Origin: Thiogranum sp.
Lineage (GTDB): Bacteria; Pseudomonadota; Gammaproteobacteria; DSM-19610
NCBI GenBank assembly: GCA_030148775.1
Contig: JASBST010000107.1
Span: forward strand, 1-40,820
Length of the DNA stretch: 40,820 nt
Direction: 5' to 3'
Shown: piece after piece, positions 17,079 through 30,870 of the stretch
Position numbering within the stretch: the stretch's first letter is position 1
How the letters are laid out: the number at the start of each line of letters is the position of its first letter
Notes under the pieces: model-generated
Databases searched by the model: none
What the model was told of the DNA's origin: nothing
The model's input: the letters and a program-made list of their open reading frames with translations, nothing else
Translations under genes and position numbers: made by a program

Positions 17079-17432
17079 TTAATAGCCAGAGCCGTCGACC
17101 GGTTCGAGCGAATCGGGGTTTTTCCATAACATGGTGTAAACCGAGCGGTCGGTGTTGCCGGTATTGTCGGCTACGATGATTTCCGCAAATTCGGCAGCGA
17201 CGCTTTTGTTGATCGGACAGCTGAACAATAAGCGCCGAAACTGCCTATAGTCCAACGGACGAAAAACCATGTATCGATGCTTTAGATAGAGATGCAGTGC
17301 CGGCAGCGTGAAATCCCAGGCATTACGGGTGACGGAGAACGCGGGCTCATCGCGTAGCGGTGAAAGCTCCAGTTCATCGCGACGGGACACGCGGATGAAA
17401 AAAGACGTGAGCGCTTGTTCGGCGGCTGTCAT
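17079..17432 (-). CDS. Hypothetical protein, about 117 residues
   Basis: I do not recognise this family. The likely start is the ATG at 17432, preceded by a TGGAG-type ribosome binding site; a longer frame to 17528 would run into the LysR gene. The protein is soluble, with no signal peptide or membrane segment, and contains FFIRVSRRDELELSPLRDE and PLDYRQFRRLLFSCPINKS. Its place between the LysR gene and the YmdB-like gene on the same strand suggests it belongs to a small minus-strand operon. It might be conserved with the phosphodiesterase, but nothing here proves that. Confidence 0.6.
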   Translation of the reverse strand: MTAAEQALTSFFIRVSRRDELELSPLRDEPAFSVTRNAWDFTLPALHLYLKHRYMVFRPLDYRQFRRLLFSCPINKSVAAEFAEIIVADNTGNTDRSVYTMLWKNPDSLEPVDGSGY

Positions 17433-17512
17433 GGGCTGACTCCAGCAACGGGTGCGGGCAAACCATCGGGTCGCAAGCGACTCGCGGTTCCGCCCCGACA
17501 GGGTAGCCGTTT

Positions 17513-18496
17513 CTATTTTTTGCTGCAATTGGCCCGGGTATCGGATAACGGGCAGGGTCTCAATCTTTGCGTGGGAGTTTCTTTATGCCGCTGGTTCGAC
17601 CATTCGGACGCCAGCTTGGTGAACGCTATGCAGGCCTGGCTTTTGTAACCGTCTTTTCGGCTGATGACGGTGACGGCTTTGTGTGGGAGGTCAGGCGTTA
17701 TCATAATCGGGTGCAGTCCGCATTGGCTGCGCACGATACTGATCGGCAGCACCGTGGCGAGCGGGCCGACCTGAATCAGTTCGATGATCACACTGAGTGA
17801 GTTGGTGTTGATGACATTGCGCGGAGACACAGCCTGCTCGACGCAATACTGATCGACAATATGGCGCAGCGCGAACTCTGTATTCAAAAGCGCCAGTGAC
17901 TCCTGCCCGAACTCCTGCGCGCTCATGCGCTTGCGTTGACCCGCGCGAGGGTGTTCATTACCAACGGCGAGACAAAGCGCCTCGTTAAAAAGTACACAGG
18001 TTTCGATTTCACTGGAGTCGTCTTCGGGGGACAGCGGCTTACTGAAAGCGATGCCGACATCGATCAGACCTTCGGTGAGCGCGACTTTGATATCGTCCTG
18101 TGGCATTTCCAGCGTATTGAGCGTGATGCCCGGATAGAGATGATTGAATTTCTCCAGTAACGGGCAGGTCATGTAGTCGGTGATGGGCGTCCAGCCCAGG
18201 CGTAGCGAACCGCGGCTCAAGTCCTGAACGTCGTGGATAGCGCGGGTACCGGCGTGCAACTCTCCCCAGGCGCGACGCGCATGGCGCAAATAAATCTCAC
18301 CGGCGTCCGTCAGCCTTACGGTTCTTCCCGAGCGATCGAGCAACGGCGAACCCAGCGACTCTTCGAGTTGTTTGATTTGCTGCGATAAAGTCGGTTGCGA
18401 TACATACAGCGCTTCGGCAGCCCTGGTGTAGCTGCCGTACTCGGCGATGGCAATCAAGTACTGCAGCGAACGGGGAAAAATGTCGCGTCGATCCAT
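17513..18496 (-). CDS. LysR-type regulator, CynR-like, of the thiocyanate locus
   Basis: This 327-residue LysR protein has an N-terminal winged helix (AEYGSYTRAAEALYVSQPTL, then SQQIKQLEESLGSPLLDRSG) and a co-inducer domain from about residue 90. Its sequence tracks E. coli CynR, the cyanate-operon regulator: RTVRLTDAGE, AIHDVQDLSRGSLRLG, LNTLEMPQDDIKVAL, DVGIAFS and VINTNSLSVIIELIQVGPLATVLP. It is divergent from the thiocyanate hydrolase genes across 188 bases. LysR proteins usually activate the divergent operon and repress themselves, so I infer control of scn genes, perhaps in response to thiocyanate or cyanate. The C-terminal tail is longer than CynR. Confidence 0.86.
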   Translation of the reverse strand: MDRRDIFPRSLQYLIAIAEYGSYTRAAEALYVSQPTLSQQIKQLEESLGSPLLDRSGRTVRLTDAGEIYLRHARRAWGELHAGTRAIHDVQDLSRGSLRLGWTPITDYMTCPLLEKFNHLYPGITLNTLEMPQDDIKVALTEGLIDVGIAFSKPLSPEDDSSEIETCVLFNEALCLAVGNEHPRAGQRKRMSAQEFGQESLALLNTEFALRHIVDQYCVEQAVSPRNVINTNSLSVIIELIQVGPLATVLPISIVRSQCGLHPIMITPDLPHKAVTVISRKDGYKSQACIAFTKLASEWSNQRHKETPTQRLRPCPLSDTRANCSKK

Positions 18497-18684
18497 AGCT
18501 ATTGCCTATAGGGTTGATAGCAACAAAGTCATGGACTAATAGCACATCTCATCTAGACTTGTCATCAGGTTAATTAAATGCCCCATTAAAAGGGCTTATT
18601 AGAATATCCATAATATGCTTATTTTCCAGACATCCCGGGATGTCTGCCGAGATCGCACCAGCCACTGAGGAGGATTCAAGGCCC
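18497..18684. promoter_or_regulatory. Divergent control region between the LysR gene and scnB
   Basis: This A/T-rich spacer holds several dyads. GCTAT...ATAGC (18498-18521) surrounds the palindrome CCTATAGG and covers the LysR start region, as expected for an autoregulatory LysR site. A looser dyad with GCCC/GGGC cores lies at 18574-18601, and TAATAT (18611-18616) may be a -10 element. A perfect 20-base palindrome is listed separately. Binding is inferred only. Confidence 0.55.
18627..18646. promoter_or_regulatory. Perfect 20-base palindrome in the scnB leader
   Basis: CAGACATCCC followed by its exact inverse complement GGGATGTCTG, with no spacer. It lies 38 bases before the scnB ATG at 18685 and just downstream of the candidate -10. 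With no loop and no T-run it is unlikely to be a terminator and more likely an operator for a second regulator. Confidence 0.6.
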
Positions 18685-19116
18685 ATGTTAACGCCCACCC
18701 GTCAGCAAGTGTTGCGCCACATCGATCTCGTCGGCCAATTGCAGCCGGCGCTTCATCAACCACAGCACGCGCCGTTTCCTGAAGCCATCGACCACGCCTT
18801 GTTCCGCGCCTATATGCGCACCGCGCACGACGTCGGCGGTGAGCCCGATGTGCCGATCCAGTACGAGGAGAAAGAAGAAGAACAGTGGGAGTTGAATACC
18901 TACGTGACCTGCGAGTGCCTGGCCTGGCGCGGTTTGTGGAACGCCGAAGAGCGGCGTCGGCGTCAGAACGTCGATCTCGGCCAAACGCAATATCTGGGGT
19001 TGCCCTATTACGGTCGCTGGTTGCTGTCGGCGGCCCGGATTCTGGTTGACAAGCAGGCGATCACGCTCACGGAACTGATCAACAAGATAGACGAGGTCAA
19101 GAAACGCTATGAATAA
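18685..19116 (+). CDS. scnB: Thiocyanate hydrolase, beta subunit
   Basis: This is one of three subunits of the cobalt enzyme converting thiocyanate and water to carbonyl sulfide and ammonia. The 143-residue protein contains QPALHQPQHAPFP, TAHDVGGEPDVPI, YEEKEEEQWELNTY, TCECLAWRG and YYGRWLLSAARILVDKQ, which follow the Thiobacillus thioparus beta subunit (157 residues) and the nitrile hydratase beta N-terminal region. I chose the ATG at 18685 because GAGGAGGA precedes it and homology starts there; the ATG at 18640 lies inside a palindrome. The gene overlaps scnA by 8 bases. Confidence 0.92.
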   Translation: MLTPTRQQVLRHIDLVGQLQPALHQPQHAPFPEAIDHALFRAYMRTAHDVGGEPDVPIQYEEKEEEQWELNTYVTCECLAWRGLWNAEERRRRQNVDLGQTQYLGLPYYGRWLLSAARILVDKQAITLTELINKIDEVKKRYE

Positions 19117-19462
19117 AAGCCATCACGCGCAAAAAGCCACGGGCAAGGGCGATCCGCAATGTTTCACCGGCGAGGCGGGTCCGCCCAAATTCAAGGTGGG
19201 CGACCGGGTCAGAATCAAGGATCTGCCCGATATTTTTTATACGCGCTGCCAGGTGTATACGCGCGGTGCGGTCGGCGAAGTGGCGGTGGTCACCCACGAA
19301 AGCCCGGCGCCGGAAGACGAGGCCTGGGACAACGTCGATCGGCCGGAGTGGTTTTACATCGTGCGTTTCAAACAAAGCGAGCTGTGGCCGGATTATCCCG
19401 CCGCCTACGCCAACGATACCTTGCAGACCGAGTTCTCCGAGCGCTGGCTGGAACCGGTGTAG
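19109..19462 (+). CDS. scnA: Thiocyanate hydrolase, alpha subunit
   Basis: This 117-residue protein carries the SH3-like domain of the nitrile hydratase beta C-terminus: FKVGDRVRIKDL, TRCQVYTRGAVGEV, FYIVRFKQSELW and a C-terminal ERWLEPV. In SCN hydrolases this fold is a separate alpha subunit (126 residues in T. thioparus). The start overlaps the end of scnB by 8 bases, implying translational coupling. The order beta, alpha, gamma is that known from Thiobacillus. It supports the active-site gamma subunit and has no metal ligands of its own. Confidence 0.92.
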   Translation: MNKSHHAQKATGKGDPQCFTGEAGPPKFKVGDRVRIKDLPDIFYTRCQVYTRGAVGEVAVVTHESPAPEDEAWDNVDRPEWFYIVRFKQSELWPDYPAAYANDTLQTEFSERWLEPV

Positions 19463-19499
19463 CGCTACTGATCGACACAGAACCGAGAGGGAAAAACAA

Positions 19500-20207
19500 A
19501 TGGCAAAAAAAAGTCCGGGCGAGCACAAAGCGGCGCCAATGGTAGAAGAGGTCAGCGATTTCGAGATTCTGGAACTGGCGGTGCGCGAACTCGCCATCGA
19601 AAAAGGTCTTTTTACCGCTGACGACCATCGTCATTTCACCGAATTCGCCCACAGTATCGGTCCGTTACCGGCGGCCCGTCTGGTGGCCAAGGCCTGGCTG
19701 GATCCGAAGTTCAAGAAACTGGCGCTCGAAGACGGCGTAACCGCGAGCAAGGAGGTCGGAATCGATTGGTTGAATCCAACCGGATTCGGCACACCCAGCG
19801 ACTACACGGATCTGCGCGTTCTCGAGGATACGCCCACAGTGAAGCACGTGGTGGTCTGCACCCTGTGTTCGTGCTATCCGCGACCGATTCTCGGTCATTC
19901 GCCGGAATGGTACCGCACACCCAACTACCGGCGCCGTATCGTCCGCTGGCCCAGGCAGGTGCTTTCGGAGTTCGGTTTACAGCTGCCGGAAAATGTCGAG
20001 ATCCGCGTGGAAGACTCCAACCAGAAGTGCCGTTTCATGGTGATGCCGATGCGCCCGGACGGCACCGAGGACTGGAGCGAAGAGGAACTGGCCGCCATCG
20101 TCACCCGCGATTGTCTCATCGGCGTGGCGCTTCCGCGCCCCGATCGCAAGCAGAATGCGCAGCGACCGGTACACAAGGCTATTCACCCCGTGCAACACGA
20201 CCATTAG
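19500..20207 (+). CDS. scnC: Thiocyanate hydrolase, gamma (cobalt-binding catalytic) subunit
   Basis: This 235-residue catalytic subunit is homologous to nitrile hydratase alpha. The metal-binding claw is VCTLCSC, with Cys120, Cys123 and Cys125 plus Ser124. This matches the T. thioparus ligands Cys128, Cys131 and Cys133, where two cysteines become sulfinic and sulfenic acids around a low-spin cobalt(III). The Thr between the first two ligands (CTLC) is typical of cobalt enzymes; iron nitrile hydratases have Ser. Further matches are SPEWYRTPNYRRRIVRWPR and a C-terminal RDCLIGVALPR. GAGAGGG lies upstream of the ATG. The linked cobalt transporter genes support cobalt use. Confidence 0.94.
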   Translation: MAKKSPGEHKAAPMVEEVSDFEILELAVRELAIEKGLFTADDHRHFTEFAHSIGPLPAARLVAKAWLDPKFKKLALEDGVTASKEVGIDWLNPTGFGTPSDYTDLRVLEDTPTVKHVVVCTLCSCYPRPILGHSPEWYRTPNYRRRIVRWPRQVLSEFGLQLPENVEIRVEDSNQKCRFMVMPMRPDGTEDWSEEELAAIVTRDCLIGVALPRPDRKQNAQRPVHKAIHPVQHDH

Positions 20208-20218
20208 GAGGCTTGGCG

Positions 20219-20608
20219 ATGGGCGGCACTCACAAAGAATCCGACGCTGGTGATTCGAACAACACCTCCGGCGAATACGCTTCCATTGCGCTATTGGAAC
20301 AAATACGACGGCGCGGGCGGGTGTGGCGGGACTTGAGCGCTCAGTATGGCGTTGAAAATCCGGATCCGCCCTGGAAGGTCTGTCTGGAAGGGACTTGCGA
20401 GGCACTCGCCGTGCAAGCCTGCGCATTGCCGGTGTTGGAGCGGCGCTGGGCCGAGGACGAACTTTCCGAAACTCTGTATCAGGGTGTGCCTTTCCCGGAA
20501 CGACAGCTGTTGGCGCTGGCGCACACCATGATCGAACGCGGTCTGTTCGGCGAAGACGAGTTGGCACGGCGAATAGAAAAGGTCGGTGAGCGTCTGAATA
20601 GTGTATAG
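20219..20608 (+). CDS. Thiocyanate hydrolase activator, P15K-like
   Basis: This 129-residue protein resembles the N-terminal region of nitrile hydratase beta and the P15K activator encoded with SCN hydrolase in T. thioparus, which promotes cobalt insertion and maturation. Visible family features are PPWKVCLEGTCEALAVQACA, FPERQLLALAHTMIERGLF and ELARRIEKVGERL. Two cysteines in VCLEGTC could help in metal or thiol chemistry; this is inference. AGGAGG lies 7 bases before the ATG, 11 bases after scnC, so it is co-transcribed with scnBAC. Confidence 0.85.
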   Translation: MGGTHKESDAGDSNNTSGEYASIALLEQIRRRGRVWRDLSAQYGVENPDPPWKVCLEGTCEALAVQACALPVLERRWAEDELSETLYQGVPFPERQLLALAHTMIERGLFGEDELARRIEKVGERLNSV

Positions 20609-20684
20609 GGACTGCATTATCCCGCCATCGATTGCCGCTCGCTGCAATTTCCCTTGCATTGGCGATAAAAAAGGCTTTCGAACC

Positions 20685-20771
20685 ATGACAAAAATAGCAA
20701 AGAAATTCCTACGCATGGACGCCAGTAGAGCAGATACCGATAAATCGACCATACAAGTGAGGTGTTTCTGA
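20685..20771 (+). CDS. Possible 28-residue peptide coupled to the ABC ATPase gene
   Basis: A short basic ORF (MTKIAKKFLRMDASRADTDK and eight more residues) ends in TGATG, overlapping the ATPase start by one base. It has no strong ribosome binding site and no recognised family. It might be a leader that couples translation, or chance. It lies in the 162-base gap after the activator gene, where a secondary promoter could also sit. Confidence 0.25.
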   Translation: MTKIAKKFLRMDASRADTDKSTIQVRCF

Positions 20772-21367
20772 TGGCTGCCCGTGGCGTCAACATTCGTATC
20801 GAAAATTTATCCCACCGCTATACTTCCAAAAGCCCCGTTACCTTTGATCGGGTCAATATCGAAGCCGAGCCGGGCGAGTCGCTGGTAATCATCGGTCGGT
20901 CGGGCTGTGGGAAATCCACGTTGCTGCATATCGTCGCGGGGCTGCTGGCGCCCACTAACGGTACGTTGCTTCTGGACGATGTTCAGGTTCGGGCGCCCTC
21001 GTCGCGCTGGGTGATGATGTTTCAGGCACCCCATCTGTTTCCCTGGATGACCGTCACGCGCAATGTCGGCATCGGTCTGCATTTCGCCAACTGGCCGAAG
21101 AGGGAAATGCAGGAACGTGTCGCCGAAGCCATACGTCTGGTGAATCTGGAAGACTACGCCCATAACAACGTCCAGGATCTGTCCGGCGGTCAACAGCAAC
21201 GGGTGGCACTCGCACGTTCGCTGGTTATGGAACCGGAGCTGCTGCTGCTCGACGAACCGTTTTCCGCGCTGGACGCCTTTACCCGAACCGCGCTGCAGCG
21301 AGATGTTCGCTCAATCGCCAAGCAACTGGGCATTAACCTGATGATGGTCACCCACGATATCGACTAA
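20771..21367 (+). CDS. ABC transporter ATPase (NitT/TauT type), truncated by an in-frame TAA
   Basis: This is the nucleotide-binding subunit of an importer of the SsuB/TauB/NrtD class. The 198 residues carry Walker A (GRSGCGKST), the Q-loop (MMFQAPHLFPW), signature LSGGQQQR, Walker B (LLLLDEP) and the H-loop His (VTHD). The usual VTHDIDEAV continues here as VTHDID-stop-AV, so TAA replaces the expected Glu codon. The same frame stays open downstream. All catalytic motifs precede the stop, so the short form might still work. GAGGTG lies 8 bases before the ATG at 20771; a GTG at 20762 is less likely. Confidence 0.85.
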   Translation: MAARGVNIRIENLSHRYTSKSPVTFDRVNIEAEPGESLVIIGRSGCGKSTLLHIVAGLLAPTNGTLLLDDVQVRAPSSRWVMMFQAPHLFPWMTVTRNVGIGLHFANWPKREMQERVAEAIRLVNLEDYAHNNVQDLSGGQQQRVALARSLVMEPELLLLDEPFSALDAFTRTALQRDVRSIAKQLGINLMMVTHDID

Positions 21368-21586
21368 GCGGTGCTGATGGCCGACCGCGCCTTGGTCATG
21401 GCGGGCTCACCCGGCAGGATCGTACACGATCTGCCTGTGGACCTGGAAGACCCCCGCGAGCGCGACGATCCGCTGGTGCAGTCGAAACGCGCCCATCTGA
21501 TGCAGATTTTTCAGGATGCGGCGAAGCCTTCGCCCTTACACAGAAACGCGACCGAGGCCACGACCCGTTTGGTGGGCATTACTTGA
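21368..21586 (+). other. In-frame C-terminal remainder of the ABC ATPase gene
   Basis: After TAA (21365-21367) the frame continues AVLMADRALVMAGSPGRIVH, then DLPVDLEDPRERDDPLV, to a TGA at 21584. This is the normal regulatory tail of NitT/TauT ATPases. Restart at the ATG four codons after the stop is conceivable, but there is no clear ribosome binding site. It indicates a single G-to-T change or a base error, not old decay. Confidence 0.75.
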
Positions 21587-21636
21587 TCTGTCAGAGCGTG
21601 CAGTTTGGTTCTGATCACCCAGAGAGGAAGTGCGAG

Positions 21637-22917
21637 ATGAAAAAAATCTACCAGAAGCACGGCGACAAGATACAGGACCCCAAGCTGGTTGTGGACTACG
21701 ACCCGTTGTTCAAGGGCGTATTGGGGACGGGAATCAATCGACGCGAGTTTCTCGCCATGGGCGCGCTGGCGGCGTTAAACGGCGCCATGCCGGCGCCGTT
21801 GTTCGCGAAAGAAAGGAAGTGGAACCCGGTGGTGAAAATCGGCTATATACCGATTACCGACGCCGCCGCGCTCCTGGTTGCACACGAGTTGGGATTTTTC
21901 AAGAACGAGGGCATCGATTCGGTCAAACCAACTCTGATACGCGGTTGGTCGCCCCTGGTCGAGGCTTTCGCCTCCCACCGTTTCAATCTCACACATATGT
22001 TGATCCCGATTCCCATCTGGATGCGGTACAACAACAATTTCCCCGTCAAGATTACCGCTTGGGATCATACCAACGGCTCGGCCGTGGTGGTTGGCAGGCA
22101 CAGCGGCATCGAGTCCCCCAAGGACTTCGGCGGCAAGCAGTTCGCGGTACCGTACTGGTATTCGATCCACAATATCGTATCGCAGCGAATTCTGCAGGAA
22201 GCGGGTATTAAACCGGTGATTCGTCCGCAGAACGCCAAGCTCGCGCCCGACGAGTGCAATTTCCTCGTTCTGGCGCCGCCGTCCATGCCCCCGGCGCTGG
22301 CGGCAAAGAATATCGATGCCTACTGCGTGGCTGAACCGTTCAATGCGCTGGGCGAACTGAAGGCCGGCGGAAAGGTGCTGCGTTTCACCGGCGATGTGTG
22401 GAAAGGCCATCCCTGCTGCGTGGTGGTCATGCACGAGGCCGATACCATGGACCCGGACCGGGCGGCCTGGTCCCAGGGGGTACATAACGCCGTCGTGGCG
22501 GCACAGATCTATCTGGCCGAAAACCGCAAATCGATGGCACAGATGCTATCGCGCGATGGCAAAGGTTACCTGCCCTTCCCGAAAGAGATCGTCGAGCGCG
22601 CCATGCTCTTTTACGATCCGGCCTATTATAAGAATCCCAACGCGATCAAACATCCCGAATGGGGCATGGATAGAATCAACTTCCAGGCCTGGCCGTACCG
22701 ATCGGCCACCGAGCTGGTGGTCTCCGATCTGAAAAGAACGGTGGTGACCGGCGACGCGGCCTTCCTCGATACGCTCACGCCAGAGCATGTGGCTAACGAC
22801 CTGGTCAATTACGACTTTATCAAAAAAGCCCTGGAAGCAAACCCGAAATGGCGCGCCGATCCCAGCGTTCCGGCCACGGGGGATCCCTACACGCGTAAGG
22901 AGGTCGTCGAAGTATGA
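21637..22917 (+). CDS. ABC transporter substrate-binding protein (NrtA/SsuA/TauA-like), candidate thiocyanate binder
   Basis: This 426-residue periplasmic binding protein has a Tat-type signal after a long N-region: NRREFLAMGALAAL with Arg35-Arg36. The mature part follows the NMT1/NrtA fold: VKIGYIPITDAAALLVAHEL, FFKNEGI, NLTHMLIPIPIW, AWDHTNGSAVVVG, FGGKQFAVPYWYSIHN and a long C-terminal helical part. Related NrtA/CynA proteins bind nitrate, bicarbonate or cyanate. Its place directly behind the thiocyanate hydrolase genes makes thiocyanate the most likely ligand, by inference. The start at 21637 follows AGAGAGGAAG. It overlaps the permease gene by 4 bases (ATGA). Confidence 0.85.
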   Translation: MKKIYQKHGDKIQDPKLVVDYDPLFKGVLGTGINRREFLAMGALAALNGAMPAPLFAKERKWNPVVKIGYIPITDAAALLVAHELGFFKNEGIDSVKPTLIRGWSPLVEAFASHRFNLTHMLIPIPIWMRYNNNFPVKITAWDHTNGSAVVVGRHSGIESPKDFGGKQFAVPYWYSIHNIVSQRILQEAGIKPVIRPQNAKLAPDECNFLVLAPPSMPPALAAKNIDAYCVAEPFNALGELKAGGKVLRFTGDVWKGHPCCVVVMHEADTMDPDRAAWSQGVHNAVVAAQIYLAENRKSMAQMLSRDGKGYLPFPKEIVERAMLFYDPAYYKNPNAIKHPEWGMDRINFQAWPYRSATELVVSDLKRTVVTGDAAFLDTLTPEHVANDLVNYDFIKKALEANPKWRADPSVPATGDPYTRKEVVEV

Positions 22918-23753
22918 ATACCAACGCCGCCCCTACCGCGGCTGTGGTAGACGCCGCGCTTTCCGATTCCACCCGGGCGATGAAATCGGCCGGACGGCGC
23001 AGTTTCAACTGGGTGGCCGGACTGAGTATTTTGTTGGCGCTCTGGTGGTTCGGCGCGTATCTCATCGAAATCAATCCGTCCACGCGGCACTTCGCCGACT
23101 TCGGGCCCATACCGACCTTCCAGGCCTTTCCGGTTCTGTGGCACGACGGCACCATACAGAACGCGGTGGCCGCCAGCGGCTACCGGCTGGGTGTGGGTTT
23201 GTTGATTGCCATTGCCATCGGGATTCCGATCGGCATCATGATGGGCCGCAGCCGGACTTTCCGTGAGCTGAGTAATTCGCCGTTCCAGTTGTTGCGCATG
23301 ATCAGCCCGCTGTCGTGGGAGCCGATCGCGGTGATTGTCTTTCTTTCGTGGAATCACGCCATTATTTTTCTTATCGCCATCGCCTCGGTCTGGCCGGTGG
23401 CCTTTTCCACGGCGGCCGGACTGGCCAAAGTCGATCCCGCCTGGTTCAAGGTTTCGCGTAATCTGGGCGCGAAGCCCTGGCACACACTTACCCAGATCAT
23501 CCTGCCGGCCATTGCCTTCGACATTCTGACCGGCATCCGCGCAGCCCTGGGTGTTGCCTGGATCGTACTTGTTCCGGCCGAGTTTCTCGGCGTCACCTCC
23601 GGTCTGGGGTATTCGATCGAAGATGCGCGCGAGACGCTTTCTTACAATCATTTGACCGCCATGGTGCTGGTGATCGGCGTGATCGGCTATATGCTCGACA
23701 GCACCTGCGCATTAGCCATAAAACGGTTCAGCTGGCATCGCGGCGCCGTTTGA
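22914..23753 (+). CDS. ABC transporter permease (SsuC/TauC/NrtB-like)
   Basis: This 279-residue integral membrane protein belongs to the BPD_transp_1 family. Hydrophobic segments include WVAGLSILLALWWFGAYLI, a central block around ISPLSWEPIAVIVFLSW, and a C-terminal segment AMVLVIGVIGYML. The EAA-type coupling loop that contacts the ATPase is NLGAKPWHTLTQIILPA. The gene starts in an ATGA overlap with the binding-protein gene, so the two are coupled. Together with the ATPase it forms a NitT/TauT-type importer, here probably for thiocyanate. Confidence 0.88.
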   Translation: MNTNAAPTAAVVDAALSDSTRAMKSAGRRSFNWVAGLSILLALWWFGAYLIEINPSTRHFADFGPIPTFQAFPVLWHDGTIQNAVAASGYRLGVGLLIAIAIGIPIGIMMGRSRTFRELSNSPFQLLRMISPLSWEPIAVIVFLSWNHAIIFLIAIASVWPVAFSTAAGLAKVDPAWFKVSRNLGAKPWHTLTQIILPAIAFDILTGIRAALGVAWIVLVPAEFLGVTSGLGYSIEDARETLSYNHLTAMVLVIGVIGYMLDSTCALAIKRFSWHRGAV

Positions 23754-23783
23754 CGAACCCTAATCACAAGAGGAGAACTGACC

Positions 23784-23978
23784 ATGCAAAACGCTGTATC
23801 AAATGAGACCGTACTTGACGGCCGGGCATTGTCCGGAGTTGTGGCTGCACCCGTCCAGTTGCTGATGGCCGGCCTGATCGGCCTGGTGATTCTTTATGGA
23901 GCGGTGTTCGTGGAGAGCCCGGTAGTGCACAACGCCGCGCATGACATGCGTCATTCGCAGGCGTTTCCCTGCCATTAG
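23784..23978 (+). CDS. cbtB: Cobalt transporter subunit CbtB
   Basis: This 64-residue protein has one membrane helix (LLMAGLIGLVILYGAVFVE) and the family's C-terminal metal-binding end HDMRHSQAFPCH, with His residues and a terminal Cys-His. CbtB is the small partner of CbtA in a predicted cobalt transporter, usually found under B12 control; here it lies inside the thiocyanate hydrolase run. A GAGGAGA ribosome binding site precedes the ATG. It likely supplies cobalt for ScnC, by inference from context. Confidence 0.88.
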   Translation: MQNAVSNETVLDGRALSGVVAAPVQLLMAGLIGLVILYGAVFVESPVVHNAAHDMRHSQAFPCH

Positions 23979-24001
23979 ACAGAGGGTGGAGGCCGACGGC
24001 C

Positions 24002-24724
24002 ATGCTATTTCGACAAATCGTCAGCTATGCGCTGCTAATCGGCGTACTGTCCGGCATCGTGGTCACTGCCGTGCAAATGTGGCGGGTGATACCGATCATA
24101 CAGAGCGCCGAGCAGTTTGAGCATGCGTCCGCGGCGGCGCATTCCCACGACCACGCCATATCCGGTCATGGGCAAACGCCGTGGGCGCCGGCGCCGGGGC
24201 TCGAGCGAACCGGCTATACGTTACTGTCAAACGTGTTGATAGCCGCGGGGCTGGCGCTGGTCATGTTGCCGCTCATGGTCGCGCGCGGCGCAACGCAGAC
24301 CGCCGGCAGTATCTGGCGGCGGGGGCTGCTGTGGGGATTGGCGGGGTATACCGTGTTTTACCTTGCGCCCGCGAGCGGACTTCCGCCGGAGATTCCCGGT
24401 GCCGGCGCGGCGCCGCTGGAGGCGCGCCAGATCTGGTGGCTGTTGAGCGTAGCCTGCACCGCGTCGGGGTTGGCCTGGATGGTGTTTGGCAGGAGTCGAT
24501 GGCGTTGGAGTAGCGTCGCCTTGTTGCTGGTGCCGCATCTGATCGGAGCGCCGCAACCCTCGGTCGCGCCGTTCTCCGAACAGGCACCGGCGGTGGCCGC
24601 GCAGCTGACACAGCTCGCCGAGCAATTTATCACGGCCACCGCCATGGCTAATGCGGCGCTCTGGCTTGTGCTCGGCCTGAGCTCGGTCTGGGCAGTGCGG
24701 CGGATGCTCCTGTCACGGCATTGA
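24002..24724 (+). CDS. cbtA: Cobalt transporter subunit CbtA
   Basis: This 240-residue membrane protein of the CbtA family has the N-terminal helix MLFRQIVSYALLIGVLSGIV, then a His-rich loop (HASAAAHSHDHAISGHG) likely to bind metal. The conserved core is RGLLWGLAGYTVFYLAPASG, followed by LPPEIPG and ARQIWWLLSVACTASGLA. About five or six membrane segments are visible. It follows cbtB by 23 bases. Cobalt specificity is predicted for the family, and the neighbouring cobalt enzyme fits. Confidence 0.88.
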   Translation: MLFRQIVSYALLIGVLSGIVVTAVQMWRVIPIIQSAEQFEHASAAAHSHDHAISGHGQTPWAPAPGLERTGYTLLSNVLIAAGLALVMLPLMVARGATQTAGSIWRRGLLWGLAGYTVFYLAPASGLPPEIPGAGAAPLEARQIWWLLSVACTASGLAWMVFGRSRWRWSSVALLLVPHLIGAPQPSVAPFSEQAPAVAAQLTQLAEQFITATAMANAALWLVLGLSSVWAVRRMLLSRH

Positions 24725-24755
24725 GTTTGGCGGCAGCCCGGATGGAGGGCGCACA

Positions 24756-25400
24756 GTGCACGTTCGGCGGATCGCGTTCTACGGGCTGCTGGTCACCATG
24801 GCGTTGGCCGCGCTGATTGGTGACCCAAGGCCGGAGCAAGAGTATCGGCTATCAACAAATTTCGCTCCCGGCGGTCTGCAGACAGCGACGGACGCTTGGG
24901 AGCCGGGTTATCCGGCGGTTGATACGGGTAACCCCGTACCGCGAGGACTATACAGCGTCGTCGCCTATCTGTTGAGTGCCGCCTCGCTGATGACGGTGCT
25001 GATAGCCTCGGTTGCGACCTCGTGCAGGCCCAGGCGCGGACCAAGGTCGGCGTGGAGCGACGGATTACTGTGGGGTATCGCGGGCTACACCGTATTCTGT
25101 TTGTCCATGAGCGCGCTTAGCTATTTTATGAAAGCCCACGGTCATCTGCAGTTGACGCAGGCGGCTGCGGCAGGCGGGAAGATGCCTGGTGTCGATAGTC
25201 AGTACTTGCCGGGTCTCTTGTCCGCCCCTGCGAGCGGCGCGGCGAGCCCGGGCGATGCGGGATGTCGGGGCGAAGAGGGCAGGGGCGAACGGACGGACGA
25301 GGACGGCCGGCGGAGTCAGCCCCAGCGGTTCGCTTATCGTAAGCCAGCGGAGTCGCCGGGGGGCATGCCCGGCACAGTGAGCGGCGGCAGGCGCCAGTAG
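24756..25400 (+). CDS. Second CbtA-like membrane protein with an aberrant C-terminus
   Basis: This 214-codon GTG-start gene has GGAGGG 6 bases upstream. The first 115 residues resemble CbtA: an N-terminal VRRIAFYGLLVTMALAALIG helix, a second helix SVVAYLLSAASLMTVLIASV, and SDGLLWGIAGYTVF, close to the core of the preceding CbtA. From there it diverges to LSMSALSYFMKAHGH, which resembles the DsrE-like protein two genes on (FSMNALTYFIKGH). The last 70 residues are hydrophilic and Gly/Arg-rich, and look like out-of-frame sequence. It may be a fused or frameshifted paralogue. Functional status is doubtful. Confidence 0.55.
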   Translation: MHVRRIAFYGLLVTMALAALIGDPRPEQEYRLSTNFAPGGLQTATDAWEPGYPAVDTGNPVPRGLYSVVAYLLSAASLMTVLIASVATSCRPRRGPRSAWSDGLLWGIAGYTVFCLSMSALSYFMKAHGHLQLTQAAAAGGKMPGVDSQYLPGLLSAPASGAASPGDAGCRGEEGRGERTDEDGRRSQPQRFAYRKPAESPGGMPGTVSGGRRQ

Positions 25401-25459
25401 TCGACCAACGGCATCAACTAACGGCAAACACGAATCTTAGGAAACATGGGGTTTCACCA

Positions 25460-25849
25460 ATGTCCAGAAAAATTTGCATCGTATGTGCCTCGGGTAGCCG
25501 GGAGAAGTTGCAGATGGCGGCGATGCTCGCGTCGGTCGCCGCCGCGAGCGGCGATCAGGTCACTGTGTTTTTCTCCATGAACGCGCTGACCTATTTCATC
25601 AAGGGGCATGTCAGCGAAGCCCCGAATGAAGGGGAGTTCGGCCAGCTGTTGAAAACCGACGGTGTGCCTACCTTCAGGCAGCTGTTTCATCAGGCCGCCG
25701 AACTCGGCGACGCCAGACTGTTGCCATGCTCCATGGCCATCGACCTGTTGAAGATCGACGCGGACGCGCTCGATCCCGAATTCGGACCTCCCACCGGCTT
25801 GACGGTTTTTCTCAACGAAGCCGAGGGCGGTCAACTGCTGACATTTTAA
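25460..25849 (+). CDS. DsrE/DsrF-like sulfur-relay protein
   Basis: This 129-residue soluble protein of the DsrE/peroxiredoxin-like family opens with KICIVCASGSREKLQMAAML, continues FFSMNALTYFIKGH and VPTFRQLFHQAAELGDA, and has the conserved Cys90 in LLPCSMA. That Cys position carries persulfide sulfur in related proteins. It lies directly before a TusA-like gene and an SQR-like gene, a grouping known from sulfur oxidisers, so it probably accepts or passes on sulfane sulfur in the cytoplasm. Two further cysteines (Cys6, Cys9) are near the N-terminus. Confidence 0.82.
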   Translation: MSRKICIVCASGSREKLQMAAMLASVAAASGDQVTVFFSMNALTYFIKGHVSEAPNEGEFGQLLKTDGVPTFRQLFHQAAELGDARLLPCSMAIDLLKIDADALDPEFGPPTGLTVFLNEAEGGQLLTF

Positions 25850-25886
25850 GGCGCGCCCCGGTGCGATCAGAACGAGGAATTGAAAA

Positions 25887-26117
25887 ATGAGTGAAGTGAA
25901 AGTTATCGACGCCTGCAACACCTTTTGTCCGGGTCCGCTAATGGAGCTGATCACCTATATGAAGCAAGCCCAGATCGGCGACACCCTGGAGTTGCTGTCG
26001 ACCGACCAGGGCTCGGCCGCGGACGTGCCGGAATGGGTCGAGAAAGTCGGCCACCAGATGGTGGGCAGCGAAAAGATCGGCGATGTCTGGCACATCAAGG
26101 TTCGCAAGGCGAAGTAA
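25887..26117 (+). CDS. TusA/SirA-like sulfur carrier protein
   Basis: This 76-residue protein has the TusA signature CPGP in NTFCPGPLMELITYM; Cys14 is the persulfide carrier. The rest follows the two-layer fold with a central LELLSTDQGSAADVPEWV. TusA proteins hand sulfur to partners such as DsrE; here the two genes are 37 bases apart with the SQR-like gene behind. In the thiocyanate setting it could move sulfur released after COS breakdown. A GAGGAA ribosome binding site precedes the ATG. Confidence 0.87.
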   Translation: MSEVKVIDACNTFCPGPLMELITYMKQAQIGDTLELLSTDQGSAADVPEWVEKVGHQMVGSEKIGDVWHIKVRKAK

Positions 26118-26177
26118 AGGCTTTGGAGACGATTTAACGCCGTCGCTGCCAAAGACGGTTGGAGAAGGGAGTATATC

Positions 26178-27311
26178 ATGCGAATTCTAGTTGTCGGTGG
26201 CGGAACGGGTGGAACCATTATCGCCAACAATCTGGCTCGCCGGCTATCCGCCGAACTACGGACCGGTAAAGTCAGTTTGACCATGCTGTCGGCCAGTGAC
26301 CGGCATATGTATCAACCGGGTCTGCTGTACGTGGCGTTCGGGCAAATGATGCCCGATACCCTCTACCGCGACCAGGCCAGCCTGTTGGAGGCCAGTATCG
26401 AGTTTCACGTCGATCCGGTAAAGCATTTCATGCTGGATGAACGGCGGGTGAAGACACAGTCAGATCGGGTGTTCGACTATGACATCCTGGTGATCGCCAC
26501 CGGTTCGCGCATGGTGCCCGAGGAAATACCCGGTCTGGTCGAGGGGTCGGAAACCTTCTACTCCGAGGCCGGCGCAATAAAGATGTACAAGGCGCTGCGC
26601 AACTTCAAGGGCGGCAGAGTGGCGATCGTCGTGGGTGTTCCGCACAAGTGTCCTATCGCACCCGTGGAAGTGACCTTCTCACTGCACGATTATTTCAAGA
26701 CGCGTGGTATCCGTGACAAAGTCGAAATCAAGTACCACTATCCCATCAATCGGATTCACAGCATTGAGAATGTCGCCAAATGGGCCAAACCGGAGTTCGA
26801 TCGCATGGGTGTGGCCTATGAAACCTTGTTTAACCTCAAGGAGGTCGATGTGCAAAACAAGGTTATCCACAGTGAAGAAGACACCGAGTACGCCTACGAT
26901 CTGCTGATCTCCATCCCGGCCCATCGGGGTATGGCGGTGATCGAGGAGAACCGGCTCGGCCAGGCCGGCTGGATACCCACCGACCGGCATCAACTGACCA
27001 TGGAGGGTTATGACAATGTTTATGTTCTGGGAGATACCACTAATCTTCCCGTCAGCAAGACCGGCTCCGCGGCCCATTTCGAGGCCGAGGTGATCGCCGA
27101 CAACATCGCTTCAATTGTAAAGATCGGCACACCGGTGCGCGAATACGATGGCAAGGTGTACTGCTTCATCGAAGCCGGTCACGACCAGGCCACCTACGCG
27201 ATGTTCAACTATCTAAATCCCCCCGACCTGAAGCCCGCGAACAAGTCCATGCATTGGTTCAAGATGTCATACAACCAAATGTACTGGAGCAGCGTGCGCG
27301 GATTGCTTTGA
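26178..27311 (+). CDS. SQR-like FAD/NAD(P) disulfide oxidoreductase
   Basis: This 377-residue flavoprotein has the FAD-binding GGGTGG at the N-terminus, ILVIATGSRMVPEEIPG, and the second FAD motif NVYVLGDTTNLPVSKTG. Only two cysteines are present: Cys158 (PHKCPIAP) and Cys329 (KVYCFIEAG). They correspond to the redox pair of sulfide:quinone oxidoreductases (Cys160/Cys356 in Acidithiobacillus); the third Cys is missing. The C-terminus is aromatic and could bind the membrane. It probably oxidises sulfide or a persulfide and passes electrons to quinone. It clusters with DsrE, TusA and DUF1641. Confidence 0.82.
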   Translation: MRILVVGGGTGGTIIANNLARRLSAELRTGKVSLTMLSASDRHMYQPGLLYVAFGQMMPDTLYRDQASLLEASIEFHVDPVKHFMLDERRVKTQSDRVFDYDILVIATGSRMVPEEIPGLVEGSETFYSEAGAIKMYKALRNFKGGRVAIVVGVPHKCPIAPVEVTFSLHDYFKTRGIRDKVEIKYHYPINRIHSIENVAKWAKPEFDRMGVAYETLFNLKEVDVQNKVIHSEEDTEYAYDLLISIPAHRGMAVIEENRLGQAGWIPTDRHQLTMEGYDNVYVLGDTTNLPVSKTGSAAHFEAEVIADNIASIVKIGTPVREYDGKVYCFIEAGHDQATYAMFNYLNPPDLKPANKSMHWFKMSYNQMYWSSVRGLL

Positions 27312-27322
27312 GGAACCCGACC

Positions 27323-27775
27323 ATGACCTCGCAGATAGAAGTCTCCGATCGACCCGCGCCGCCGTCCGAGCCTGGTGTCGGTCCGGCCGAACTCGCCCGA
27401 CTCTCGGAACTGGCCACGCTTGTTACCGCCGCGCAGGATGCGATGTCCGACGATATCGTCACCCGGTTGTCCGCCGCGCTGAACGAGGGGATGATCCTGC
27501 TCGACCGTCTCACGCGTAATCAGGCGTTGATGCGTCTGCTTCACACACTCGAGCGTGCGGAATGCCAGAATCTGCTGGAAGCGCTGGCCGAGGCATTGGC
27601 GGCGACCAGTCGGGACCTGGCCAAGGGGCGGGCCGCGGATGGCGGGTTAGGCGGCTGGGTTCGGTTACTGCGGGATCCGGACACCTGCGAAACCCTACGC
27701 CTGGTGTCGGTGTTGGGCAGTCACCTCAGCCGTAACCTGCAGGCATCGCGGGCGCCCGATTCTTCGTCAAGCTAA
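27323..27775 (+). CDS. DUF1641 family protein
   Basis: This 150-residue, largely helical protein includes LARLSELATLVTAAQDAMSD, MILLDRLTRNQALMRLLHTL and WVRLLRDPDTCETLRLVSVL, the DUF1641 pattern. Such proteins are repeatedly encoded next to SQR-like flavoproteins in archaea and sulfur oxidisers; their role is unknown and could be as a small partner subunit. The start at 27323 has GAGGAA upstream, 11 bases after the SQR-like stop. Its stop codon overlaps that of the convergent porin gene. Confidence 0.78.
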   Translation: MTSQIEVSDRPAPPSEPGVGPAELARLSELATLVTAAQDAMSDDIVTRLSAALNEGMILLDRLTRNQALMRLLHTLERAECQNLLEALAEALAATSRDLAKGRAADGGLGGWVRLLRDPDTCETLRLVSVLGSHLSRNLQASRAPDSSSS

Positions 27776-28899
27776 AATTCGGCCACAGCGCGCAGGCCCG
27801 CGATCCAGCCCCGCGGACTGCGGCCGTCTTTGCGCGTGTCGTTCAGATACTGGAGATCGGCGCTGAGGCTGAGCGTTGTGTTCAGTTGCCAGCGGTAATA
27901 GCCTTCGACCACCCAGGATCTGGCGATGTCCAGGCTACCACCATCGAGGCGGGCGAAGCCAAGCCCGAGGCGATCGACGCCGCGACCCCATGCCGCCCCA
28001 TCCAGCTCGATGCCCGCCGAATAGATCGCATTGTGCTCGACTGCGGCCTGGTCGCTTTGCCAGCCGAAGCGAGCCCAGGCGCCGAGGACGGCGCCGAACT
28101 GTTGGTCGAAGGAAAACAGTACGCCGTGGCGGTTTTCCGTGTGGGCGCCGCTGTGGTGGAGGAAGTCGCGGCTGCCGGCGGCGAGAATCATCCGGTAGTT
28201 GCCCTCGCCGTAACGGCTGTGGATGCCGCGGGCGATCTGTAATCCATAGAACCGATAGGCCTTGCCGTCGTCATTTTCACCGACCTCCATCGCCACCGCG
28301 TGCAGAGACCAATGGTCGAATTGCCATTCCACTGCGGCGCCTAGGTCGTAAGAGGGTAGAAAAACATTGGGACCGTTGGTCATCACCGCGTTCATGAATT
28401 GGTGGTATTCATCGTTGGCGTAACGGTTGTTGTCGAGATAATCCGTCGCGTCTATGACTCCGAAGGTGACGCCGATCTGTTGTGTGTCGGACCGAAATTC
28501 GTGCCGATACCACGCGGTAAGCAGGTGGTCGTGACTATGACCGTTGATGTTCTTGACGTCGTGTTCCAGGTCGGCGGACCAGGGCGCGACAGTGAAGGGT
28601 GCATTTCCATTCAATCCGTTGCCGATCGCGAAGCCGAACTTAGTATGTAATTCGTCGAACCGGGTTGGCCGGTAGCTAAGTTCAGGTTGGACGATGGTCG
28701 CGCCCTTGCAACCGTTGTCGTACCCCGCTGCGTCGGTGATTCGCTGGCACTGCATGCCGCCGGCGAGGATGCTGCCAATGGATAGATGCTGATTGATTTC
28801 GAATCCATGAACGGCGTCGACCAGGGAAGCCGGCGCCAATAGCGCCCCGATGCGCAAAAGTGTCGTTCCGATCCACTTCGGGTCCGCCCGGGGCGCCAC
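27772..28899 (-). CDS. OprB-like outer-membrane porin
   Basis: This roughly 375-residue beta-barrel protein has alternating amphipathic strands, including GVTFGVIDATDYLDNNRYAN, WSLHAVAMEVGENDDGKAY and WVVEGYYRWQLNTTLSLSAD. It ends in the typical Phe (AVAEF) used by the outer-membrane insertion machinery. The family is carbohydrate-selective OprB-like. The start is uncertain: I prefer the GTG at 28899, which gives a usable signal peptide (TTLLRIGALLAPASLVDA) and overlaps the upstream porin gene by only 2 bases into its stop region's leader; a frame open to 28989 exists. It may be translated with the upstream porin. Confidence 0.72.
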   Translation of the reverse strand: MAPRADPKWIGTTLLRIGALLAPASLVDAVHGFEINQHLSIGSILAGGMQCQRITDAAGYDNGCKGATIVQPELSYRPTRFDELHTKFGFAIGNGLNGNAPFTVAPWSADLEHDVKNINGHSHDHLLTAWYRHEFRSDTQQIGVTFGVIDATDYLDNNRYANDEYHQFMNAVMTNGPNVFLPSYDLGAAVEWQFDHWSLHAVAMEVGENDDGKAYRFYGLQIARGIHSRYGEGNYRMILAAGSRDFLHHSGAHTENRHGVLFSFDQQFGAVLGAWARFGWQSDQAAVEHNAIYSAGIELDGAAWGRGVDRLGLGFARLDGGSLDIARSWVVEGYYRWQLNTTLSLSADLQYLNDTRKDGRSPRGWIAGLRAVAEF

Positions 28900-28906
28900 C
28901 GCTGGT

Positions 28907-30280
28907 TTACTTGAACTGAAACTCACCCCATACCCAGGCCTTGTTGGTGTCCACCATACCCGCGATGGGGTTGTCGTTGGCACGTTCAAAAGTGGCGAAT
29001 TTGATCCCGGTCAGCCAGTTTTTACCATATTTCTTCGCCGCAAGAAAGTTCCACTCGTCACCATAATCGTTACTGCCGGCGTCGGTTTCATACTTGTGGT
29101 AGGCCGCCACGAGCTTTATACCGGCGATCTTGGTGGCGACCACAAACATATTGTCGTTCAGGCCCTGCGCGGGGTTGGTGGAGTTGGCGCCGACAAATTT
29201 GTCCGCCCATCCATTGAAGGCATGCACGGTGGCCAGTGGCGTCTGCAGTGAGGTCGTACCGTTGCCACCGAGATGCTCACGCGCCGCCTGTAGCGTCAAT
29301 GGCAGTGTGCCGACCTTGAATTTACCGCCCAACTGTACGAGGTAATAGTCCTCATCGATGTTCAGTGGGTTATTGTAGGCGTCCTGTTGATTGGCCCATT
29401 CCAGTTCGTAGAGCAGCGTGAACGCCTTGCTCAGTGCGCGCGCACCGGTCAGCCGAATACCAAAAGTGTTGGTCGAAAGTCGCTGTTCATTGAACTGCGC
29501 CGGCGCCGGTATGCCCGAGTTCGTTCTCTTCAGATTCTTGAAATCGAGTAAATAGGCGTAGCCCACCCATTTCCCCCAGGGCGATTGATAGGCGAGATTG
29601 ATCAGATGAGCGGCGTCGAACTTGTACTGCTGAAAGGCAGAGTCATTGCCGAAGATACGGTTCGCTCTTTCGACGAATGCGTATTGAAGTGTCGTCCGTG
29701 GGATGACCGTACTGTAGAGACTGACCGCGTCGAGCGTCTGCATATTCTGGCGCCAACGCACATCCCCGACCCAGCGGTCATTGTCCAGCACCAGGCGCTG
29801 GCGACCGACCCGTACCTGGGTCTTGTTCAGCAGGGCGGGGCCGTTACTCGCATGGATACCGATATAGGCCTGGTTGATTTCTGTCGCGGCCGGGTCGGGC
29901 ACCAGCGAATCCGTACCTACCTTGCTGAAATCGGTGGTGTCGAAGTAATCACTGTCGTTCAGGTGGGAGACGGCTTCGCCCTCAAGCCGCATCCAGAAGG
30001 CGTTCCAACGCTGGCTGGTATAACCGACCCTGGAGCGTATGGTAAACGCCTCGGCATTGTTTTTACTGTTGTCTTCGTGCACGTACTCATAGCGAGGCCG
30101 GAGCTCGACATTGGGACTGCCGCTTACCAAAGCCTGGGTGAAGCCGGCGGCTTCGGGCGGGGATACCGGTGCCGGCGGGGCCGGTACACCGACGCCATAG
30201 GCCGTTGAGGTGGTGCAAAGGGCAAGCGCGAACAAACCGCGCGTGCGTGAGCTGAATGGTGGCGTGTGGTGAACGGACAT
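28907..30280 (-). CDS. Alginate-export-like outer-membrane porin
   Basis: This 457-residue protein has a signal peptide and a large beta-barrel: VELRPRYEYVHEDN, RSRVGYTSQRWNAFWMRLEG, KTQVRVGRQRLVLDNDRWVG and a C-terminal WGEFQFK ending in a charged residue. The pattern is that of the alginate-export (AlgE-like) barrel family, many members of which are porins with no alginate role. GGAGGT lies before the ATG. It is followed on the same strand by the OprB-like gene. Location next to the thiocyanate locus makes anion entry across the outer membrane a possible role, unproven. Confidence 0.78.
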   Translation of the reverse strand: MSVHHTPPFSSRTRGLFALALCTTSTAYGVGVPAPPAPVSPPEAAGFTQALVSGSPNVELRPRYEYVHEDNSKNNAEAFTIRSRVGYTSQRWNAFWMRLEGEAVSHLNDSDYFDTTDFSKVGTDSLVPDPAATEINQAYIGIHASNGPALLNKTQVRVGRQRLVLDNDRWVGDVRWRQNMQTLDAVSLYSTVIPRTTLQYAFVERANRIFGNDSAFQQYKFDAAHLINLAYQSPWGKWVGYAYLLDFKNLKRTNSGIPAPAQFNEQRLSTNTFGIRLTGARALSKAFTLLYELEWANQQDAYNNPLNIDEDYYLVQLGGKFKVGTLPLTLQAAREHLGGNGTTSLQTPLATVHAFNGWADKFVGANSTNPAQGLNDNMFVVATKIAGIKLVAAYHKYETDAGSNDYGDEWNFLAAKKYGKNWLTGIKFATFERANDNPIAGMVDTNKAWVWGEFQFK

Positions 30281-30527
30281 AACCGGTACCTCCCTTGGGT
30301 TTGGCTCGCCGTATGATCGGGCGCCTCCGGGGTCGTGCCGATTCTATGTTTTCGCATAACCGCGCTTCTAGGACCGGCTATGGCGAACAGCGCTCCCCGA
30401 TTGTTGATCTCTCTAAGCGTCACTCGCAGCGGAAGGCTGCACGTTATCCAGCCTAGTCATTGGCTGATTAGCCGTCCAAGACTTTGTTGCTATTGCACTC
30501 ATAGGCGTTTCTTATGGATAAGTGCAG
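30281..30527. other. Intergenic region upstream of the porin genes
   Basis: No gene was recognised. The region should hold the minus-strand promoter for the porins. Short open frames on both strands show no family signature. It runs directly into the decayed cfa copy. Confidence 0.4.
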
Positions 30528-30870
30528 CGTTTCGCTGGGATTAGGCCAAGCCTATATGGATTAGGTCTGGGAAGCAGATAAGCTGGATGAAACCATAACG
30601 CGGTTACTGCGCGGACATCGACAGCCAATGGACGGGTTGGATAAAGTCGTGGCTTCGAGAGACCAGATGCACACGATGCGAAGGCGCTGCGGCGGACTGC
30701 CTGTCGATATCCGATACATGAATTATCGCGAGTTGGACGGAAAATTCGACAAGCTGTTTTCCGTGGGTATGTTCGAGCATGTTGGCGCAAAAAACCACAC
30801 GATCCATTTCGACACGGTCAACGAGCTGATGAAAAACGGCGGGCTGTTTCTTTTGCATACTATCGGCGGG
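30528..30870 (+). pseudogene. Decayed, internally deleted copy of the cfa gene
   Basis: Translation matches the adjacent cfa product in two blocks: LGQAYMD-stop-VWEADKLDETITRLLR, then MRRRCGGLPVDIRYMNYREL, FSVGMFEHVGAKN and LMKNGGLFLLHTIGG. Relative to the intact gene about 320 bases are missing in the middle, including the SAM-binding GCGWGG motif, and an in-frame TAG lies near the start. The 3' third is also lost. It is a tandem duplication that decayed, or a product of recombination. Confidence 0.85.

Follow-up and report, generated by a model that had tools for sequence, protein, structure and literature searches.

Do the genes for regulation, anion uptake, cobalt supply, thiocyanate hydrolysis and sulfur relay that lie side by side at positions 17513-27775 of a Thiogranum sp. 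contig work as one unit and, if so, what ties them together? We address this for the window, the whole 40,820-nucleotide stretch analysed here (assembly GCA_030148775.1, contig JASBST010000107.1, our C107), from a genome of 3.1 Mb (G000) that, with 111 contigs and 86.7% completeness, looks like a metagenome assembly. In it, a CynR-like LysR gene faces scnB-scnA-scnC-P15K, a NitT/TauT-type importer, cbtB-cbtA, dsrE-tusA-SQR and a small last open reading frame (ORF). We consider it highly probable that these genes form an operon for thiocyanate use by the carbonyl sulfide (COS) pathway which, together with a convergent porin pair, is switched on by one CynR-like LysR activator. This reading is carried by what can be observed directly, namely gene content, conserved order, selection, a 42-bp element shared by operon and porins, and the genes that this element precedes.

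The scn locus is patchy, with scnC present in 2 of the 17 genomes of the genus that we searched and in 5 of 274 in a sample of the class. For comparison, we took the best-matching 80 of 348 loci encoding a relative, a set in which distant scn loci are unrepresented, and split them by record name into 68 non-actinobacterial (hereafter ‘proteobacterial’) and 12 actinobacterial loci; the latter label, like that of sponge symbionts below, comes from record titles and a reading of isolate names. Gene order was counted where at least 9.5 kb downstream of scnC was available (51 and 8 loci, respectively), and such per-locus counts are not independent events. The nearest relative carrying the locus is Thiogranum sp. 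BWSM_145 (locus L003, the same place as genome G005), whose ScnC is 95% identical.

In 48 of the 51 proteobacterial loci, dsrE-tusA-SQR and a relative of the last ORF (orfX) lie downstream of scnC on the same strand, the exceptions being L005, L007 and L009. Matches to the importer ATPase, binding protein and permease occur in 48 loci each, P15K in 50, any LysR match within the stretch in 48, cbtB in 16, cbtA in 15 and a relative of the second porin (porin2) in 10. The actinobacterial loci keep scnB, scnA and P15K as the only companions of scnC, with the relay absent from all eight. Modules can drop out singly, as L013, L016 and L025 have the relay without importer genes, and in L015, L037 and L055 the importer genes are rearranged relative to scnBAC, with dsrE-tusA-SQR-orfX still downstream of scnC. 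Measured against L003 (dS 0.5-1.6, so partly saturated), dN/dS is 0.02-0.08 for the regulator, hydrolase, P15K, importer, DsrE, TusA, SQR and porin2, which makes their retention more than chance; it is 0.12-0.29 for cbtB, cbtA, the last ORF and a partial CbtA-like ORF. An earlier note, made from the letters alone, had described the colinear hydrolase, activator, importer, CbtB/CbtA and DsrE-TusA-SQR genes opposite a CynR-like gene, and was right in substance on families, coordinates and overlaps (8 bp for scnB/scnA, 4 bp for the binding protein and permease). The neighbourhood survey that it had proposed for scnC bears out the link to importer and relay (48/51 each) and finds cobalt genes in fewer loci (cbtB in 16 and cbtA in 15 of 51).

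The enzyme itself is identified by sequence. ScnC (19500-20207, plus strand) scores 390.6 bits against TIGR03887, over a cut-off of 291.45, and its best solved relative is the gamma subunit of thiocyanate hydrolase 2dd4 (E 4e-118), which we take to come from T. thioparus; the CxxCSC cobalt claw that the earlier note had pointed out is preserved as VCTLCSC. The two halves of the nitrile hydratase (NHase) beta family are split between scnB (PF21006, 67.5 bits), listed at 18640-19116, and scnA (19109-19462; PF02211, 80.9 bits), both on the plus strand. The start of scnB is more likely at 18685, because L003 has an in-frame stop just before the matching ATG and the family's median ORF is 143 residues long. 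The adjoining gene (20219-20608, plus strand) is presumably the activator P15K, on the strength of its position beside the scn genes and an NHase_beta_N match under cut-off; relatives occur in 50 of 51 proteobacterial and all eight actinobacterial loci. The name P15K appears in a reference title within PMC5458468. As a hydrolase of this family makes COS and ammonia (PMC5328954), the ScnBAC of the window would turn thiocyanate into these two products.

What could tie the genes together is the regulator, here called ‘ScnR’ (17513-18496, minus strand; dN/dS 0.023), which scores 358.3 bits against the NCBIfam CynR model (cut-off 277) and whose sole PDB match under 1e-20 is CynR (2hxr/3hfu). Its predicted sites are also of CynR type, that is, 15-bp inverted repeats with a second site 22 bp away. 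They form part of a predicted activator-promoter element of 42 bp (18495-18536, plus strand; 20/20 key positions), composed of the inverted repeat ATAG-N7-CTAT at 18495-18509, a second ATAG at 18517, 22 bp on, and GTCATGGAC at 18528-18536, with its left edge overlapping the cynR start codon. The same register on that codon is kept by an ATA-N9-TAT core in 33 of 37 divergent cynR-scnB regions (consensus CATAG-N7-CTATG); a stricter palindrome, CTAT-N7-ATAG, was found in only 6 of 37 regions and was dropped in favour of this core. The core is not just a start-codon effect, because it also lies upstream of scnB in 26 of 29 regions where cynR is not adjacent (shuffle mean 0.73); none of 11 actinobacterial regions has it.

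Aligning 113 sites extends the signal beyond the palindrome: offset 22 is A in 105 sites, offset 23 is T in 102, and GTCTTGGAC begins at offset 33. Scored over 20 positions picked from this alignment, the element reaches at least 16/20 in 65 of the 68 proteobacterial loci, a figure that is partly by construction because the positions were chosen from the same loci, and at least 17/20 in 64; two of the three lacking it begin after scnB. Shuffling mononucleotides leaves 6 matches where the real sequences have 160, and the actinobacterial loci hold a single match, at 16, in 1 of 12. The inner 20 bp, allowing two mismatches, occur exactly twice in the window's genome and twice at matching places in G005, and the reversed control pattern has no match in either genome. 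Between scnC and the last ORF, no element of at least 17/20 appears in any of 50 loci, with one 16/20 match inside L019, consistent with a single regulated promoter serving the entire operon. Scans of 17400-30700 for sigma-70 promoters and terminators gave 6 and 12 hits, compared to 6.1 and 13.5 in shuffles, and no Rfam family reached its gathering threshold in 17400-30800; composition and tRNA scans yielded nothing that bears on the reading.

This architecture closely resembles that of the E. coli CynR-cynTSX system, in which a divergent LysR gene is likewise accompanied by 15-bp inverted repeats, the first two sites 22 bp apart. There, CynR binds cooperatively to three repeats of the form ATAA-N7-TTAT centred at -66, -44 and -34 (PMC5002191). 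If the first palindrome of our element is set at -66, the second half-site would fall at -44 and TTGGAC at about -35, a spacing that fits E. coli CynR. In contrast to the latter, the repeats here are mostly ATAG-N7-CTAT, and the genes they precede are those for thiocyanate hydrolase, porins and cobalt import.

The second copy in the window places the porins under the same predicted control. Convergent with the operon on the opposite strand lies a porin pair (27772-30280) made up of an OprB-type porin (27772-28989; PF04966, 52.7 bits over 22.9), whose start codon is uncertain, and a porin of the Alginate_exp family (28907-30280; PF13372, 30.9 bits over 25.2; dN/dS 0.041). The element before them (30474-30515, minus strand) again has all 20 key positions, and the next best match in the window has 15. 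The two genomic copies of the inner 20 bp are those at 18517-18536 and within 30474-30515.

At 17/20 or more, we found the element heading scnB in 62 loci and, among genes with 400 bp of upstream room, before all 15 CbiM, all four HupE and all nine porin2 genes, as well as 16 of 26 genes for a GlcF-like iron-sulfur protein; the control, conserved ORFs outside the named clusters, gave 7 of 128. Some of these are the element at the cynR start facing an importer gene, which holds for all four HupE, six CbiM (10 of 19) and one GlcF case; nine CbiM and all nine porin cases have separate copies. Seven of the 15 CbiM cases (L020-L023, L029-L031) are lucinid-symbiont types by record title. The core by itself precedes fewer porins (7 of 11 and 6 of 9), 15 of 25 GlcF-like genes and 7 of 95 control ORFs; a first control over all upstream regions (47 of 286 with core) was replaced, as it mixed in regulon genes and antisense ORFs. 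On these counts, the element probably marks a LysR-type thiocyanate regulon with a single kind of 42-bp, two-site promoter across Alpha-, Beta- and Gammaproteobacteria, embracing porins, at least three unrelated families of cobalt importer, the hydrolase and a paralogous sulfide-oxidising cassette, so that one signal would open the entire route, metal included. The GlcF-like protein, with cysteine-rich domains, occurs in 28 scn loci, for example at L036 2517-3833, L020 6244-7542 and L061 2352-4556.

As the regulator is CynR by family cut-off and by the architecture of its sites, it might instead sense cyanate, in which case an ordinary CynR regulon would have captured the scn genes and thiocyanate would act through cyanate formed elsewhere. 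Cyanase is indeed encoded in 22 loci, for example in L020, where it comes second in a CbiM operon headed by the element. We consider this unlikely, given that the loci where the element heads scnB outnumber those with a cyanase in the stretch, that no cyanase is found among the 23 window ORFs searched (13843-34168), and that the hydrolase route yields no cyanate (PMC5328954). Cyanase and methyltransferase genes were also tried as direct targets of the element and rejected (1 of 22 and 1 of 29); in loci such as L020 they come later in an operon.

A thiocyanate regulon of this kind would take in the cobalt genes as well. In the window, cbtB (23784-23978; PF09489, 69.3 bits) and cbtA (24002-24724; TIGR02458, 194.9 bits over 182.9), both on the plus strand, are proposed cobalt uptake subunits that pass the Pfam cut-offs, with CbtB just under that of NCBIfam (60.7 of 64.4). 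Cobalt supply differs among the loci, L004 having a NicO-type permease, 15 loci CbiM and four HupE. That unrelated importers replace one another next to a cobalt-dependent enzyme is the strongest genomic argument that cobalt would be their cargo, and it is likewise the presumed cargo of CbtBA. That the cobalt systems of two species differ had already been noted by Berben et al. (PMC5328954).

Where the cobalt genes supply the enzyme, the last genes of the operon would deal with its sulfur. On the plus strand follow a DsrE-like sulfur carrier (25460-25849), which passes PF13686 (43.2 bits over 25) and PF02635 and is far under the DsrE2 equivalog model (25.4 of 210), and a TusA-like carrier (25887-26117; PF01206, 70.6 bits over 28.6) with the CPxP motif as CPGP. 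The SQR-like flavoprotein (26178-27311) belongs, by sequence, to the FAD oxidoreductase family and, within the SQRs, to the scn-linked lineage described below, matching mitochondrial-type SQOR at E 5e-38 and the type III selenoprotein model at 317.6, under its cut-off of 525. Two of its cysteines align with cysteines of mitochondrial SQOR, which we take to be the catalytic redox pair. For the last ORF, the ATG at 27323 (27323-27775) is a more likely start than 27254; a relative of it sits beside SQR in 48 of 51 proteobacterial loci. The earlier note had named it DUF1641, an assignment that did not hold, as neither PF07849 nor any other Pfam family matches over cut-off; DUF1641-like is the best that can be said, since among seven orthologues (six from scn or cassette loci plus L082) that of L172 passes and that of L082 just misses.

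We had considered that the SQR cassette might be exclusive to scn, and rejected this, as it also stands alone: among 13 loci (L165-L176, L178) that surround close SQRs where the genome has no scnC match, 10 have dsrE-tusA-SQR-orfX, all four in order. Thus, only one lineage of the cassette is scn-linked. Of the 51 scn-linked sequences in a tree of 65 SQRs, 50 group in one branch (support 97/96), and 13 ‘solo’ rows fall outside it, including the SQRs of 12 of the 13 stand-alone loci fetched; the tree has no root, and the placement of long rows such as L178 is uncertain. The single ‘solo’ SQR within the branch, L165, is on a contig that breaks off shortly after a cbtB, so this is probably an scn locus cut short. 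One genome, G100, holds both kinds, a scn-linked SQR and a stand-alone second copy outside the branch. By the tree, then, most scn loci have a form of their own of a general sulfur cassette. The gammaproteobacterial stand-alone cassettes have the same four genes in the same order and differ in the branch of their SQR and in lacking an element of at least 17/20 in all 13 loci. Near the upstream side of dsrE, L172 (at about 145 bp) and L173 have a core palindrome with a full element of at most 15/20, which may be chance.

Taken together, the parts suggest the following course, in which we infer the inducer, the substrates of importer and porins, and the direction of sulfur flow. Without inducer, the regulator would be bound to the palindrome at the start codon of its own gene; with thiocyanate or cyanate, it would also occupy the second site 22 bp on and aid RNA polymerase at the TTGGAC-like hexamer. 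The porins would pass the anion through the outer membrane and the NitT/TauT-type importer would carry it inward. CbtBA would provide cobalt to the ScnC claw, with P15K assisting, and the hydrolase would release ammonia and COS, the latter being converted to sulfide by an enzyme encoded outside the locus. The dedicated SQR would then oxidise sulfide into the quinone pool, and the sulfur would be handed to DsrE/TusA.

Several observations weigh against so unified a picture, in addition to the built-in part of the element score. First, the palindrome alone is not enriched: with up to two mismatches, it has 35 places in G000 and 48 in G005, compared to 82 and 86 for the reversed pattern. The specificity lies in the longer element only; those of the 35 places that were fetched outside the window score at most 16/20 for it, and 15 of the 48 in G005 were looked at. 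Second, the element precedes cbtB in only 3 of 17 cases and, where cbtBA form a separate unit (eight loci), only in L012, L019 and L073. Third, the scn SQR of L037 lies outside the scn-linked branch, and G154, which is among the five class-sample genomes with scnC, gave no match for SQR at E 1e-30. Fourth, L005-L009 keep importer and cobalt genes with no relay genes seen in the stretch covered, which in three of them reaches at least 9.5 kb downstream. Fifth, no gene for a COS hydrolase is seen in the locus, and none of the beta-carbonic anhydrase (beta-CA) family in the 86.7% complete genome. Last, a stop breaks the importer ATPase gene in the present assembly.

The fourth point bears on the purpose of the locus. 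Were its role to supply nitrogen or to detoxify, and not to yield energy, the relay would do no more than clear toxic sulfide. The retention of hydrolase and activator alone in Actinobacteria would fit, as would L005-L009, where importer and cobalt genes are kept and no relay is seen in the stretch covered. A lucinid symbiont study also treats the hydrolase as a source of ammonium (PMC11171427). The relay is nevertheless kept in 48 of 51 proteobacterial loci, many of them from sulfur oxidisers by record name, and the account of the same cluster in PMC5328954 places it in thiocyanate oxidation, which leaves this view improbable for the locus as a whole. L005-L009 are gammaproteobacterial, sponge symbionts by their isolate names, and have the hydrolase, the importer and two cbtB sets; they perhaps use thiocyanate for nitrogen only.

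As for the fifth point, the absence of a COS hydrolase means little, because the assembly is incomplete and also misses a full dsrA, which its relative has. Of the different scn genomes, 18 of 26 encode some member of the beta-CA family, a group that also covers ordinary carbonic anhydrases. In T. thioparus DSM 505, a protein closely matching the solved COS hydrolase (384 bits to 3vqj) is encoded outside the 20-kb scn stretch. Membership of COS hydrolase in the regulon was rejected, as 22 of 25 beta-CA/COSase-family loci (several being one place twice) lack the core palindrome and the remaining three (L086 and L126, one place, and L133) have it about 0.5 kb or more from the gene. The reading of the earlier note is thus supported in part: that all this is one functional set is well supported by the order in 48 of 51 loci, the element before scnB and before CbiM outside the operon, and the scn-linked SQR lineage; a closed pathway from thiocyanate to sulfane sulfur is at most a candidate, no COS hydrolase having been seen in the locus.

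The interruption of the importer invites a further alternative, that uptake is decaying in this organism. The ATPase (20771-21586, plus strand) has an in-frame stop at 21365-21367, just after what we take to be the H-loop, beyond which the same frame resumes to 21586. The stop is unique to the window assembly, all 58 readable relatives continuing past this position (two loci under 60% ATPase identity and two cut by contig ends were left out). That it is real and recent, and the importer dead, is conceivable, and we lend this some weight, well short of an even chance: the segment after the stop still has a dN/dS of 0.074 (72 codons), which points to a stop that either arose recently or reflects an error of base calling or assembly, and the source looks metagenomic. 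Of the importer called in the earlier note, the substrate-binding protein (21637-22917; PF13379, 129 bits; NMT1_2 or NrtA/CmpA type) and permease (22914-23753; PF00528, 75.9 bits), both on the plus strand, are open over their full length, and the ATPase is not, so the importer is not intact as assembled.

Its cargo could also be another anion, such as nitrate, bicarbonate, a sulfonate or cyanate, with co-regulation as its only link to scn. Among the solved structures related to the binding protein are nitrate and bicarbonate transport proteins, and L013, L016 and L025 do without the importer. Where present, however, it is usually placed after the activator gene and before the relay genes (apart from the three rearranged loci above), and it is absent from the eight longer actinobacterial loci; we therefore regard a different cargo as doubtful and thiocyanate as the better candidate.

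How much of this was known? The earlier note knew of no description of the full set as a unit, and such a description exists. Berben and colleagues reported in 2017 (PMC5328954) a nearly identical layout in Thiobacillus thioparus DSM 505 and Thioalkalivibrio thiocyanodenitrificans ARhD 1, with scnABC, a small protein, a NitT/TauT importer, DsrE/F-like, TusA, SQR and a hypothetical protein in the same order and a cobalt uptake gene nearby, and an earlier ‘conserved operon’ of scn (Kantor et al. 2015) is cited in PMC5458468. Compared to these clusters, the window has CbtBA inside the operon, one permease, a broken ATPase, and convergent porins under the same element. The section of Berben et al. 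on the scn cluster names no regulator, operator or porin, and we found no description of the element, the regulon or the porin link in the literature searched, which lacked most subscription papers; these three look new. A cluster known from two cultures is now seen as a widespread unit, with a sequence signature by which its porins and metal importers can be predicted and regulon genes that do not adjoin scn can be sought. Uptake route, inducer and metal supply thereby become directly testable in cultured strains, and thiocyanate breakdown serves the treatment of gold-mine and coke wastewater (PMC8061750, PMC5458468).

Two smaller observations remain. In T. thioparus DSM 505 (L127/L090, G057:C11), a second COSase-like gene of the carbonic anhydrase family has an internal stop or frame break, with the intact COS hydrolase elsewhere. 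In the window, the ORF at 24756-25400 (plus strand) was considered as a second full CbtA and rejected, its PF09490 score of 25.9 bits being under cut-off; it starts CbtA-like and then resembles the middle of DsrE (AGYTVFCLSMSALSYFMKAH versus VTVFFSMNALTYFIKGH). This composite is found in two genomes, its counterpart in L003 (15252-15908) being 46% identical and weakly constrained (dN/dS 0.29), and at the same place seven relatives (L011, L028, L034, L044, L046, L049 and L077) have a second cbtB.

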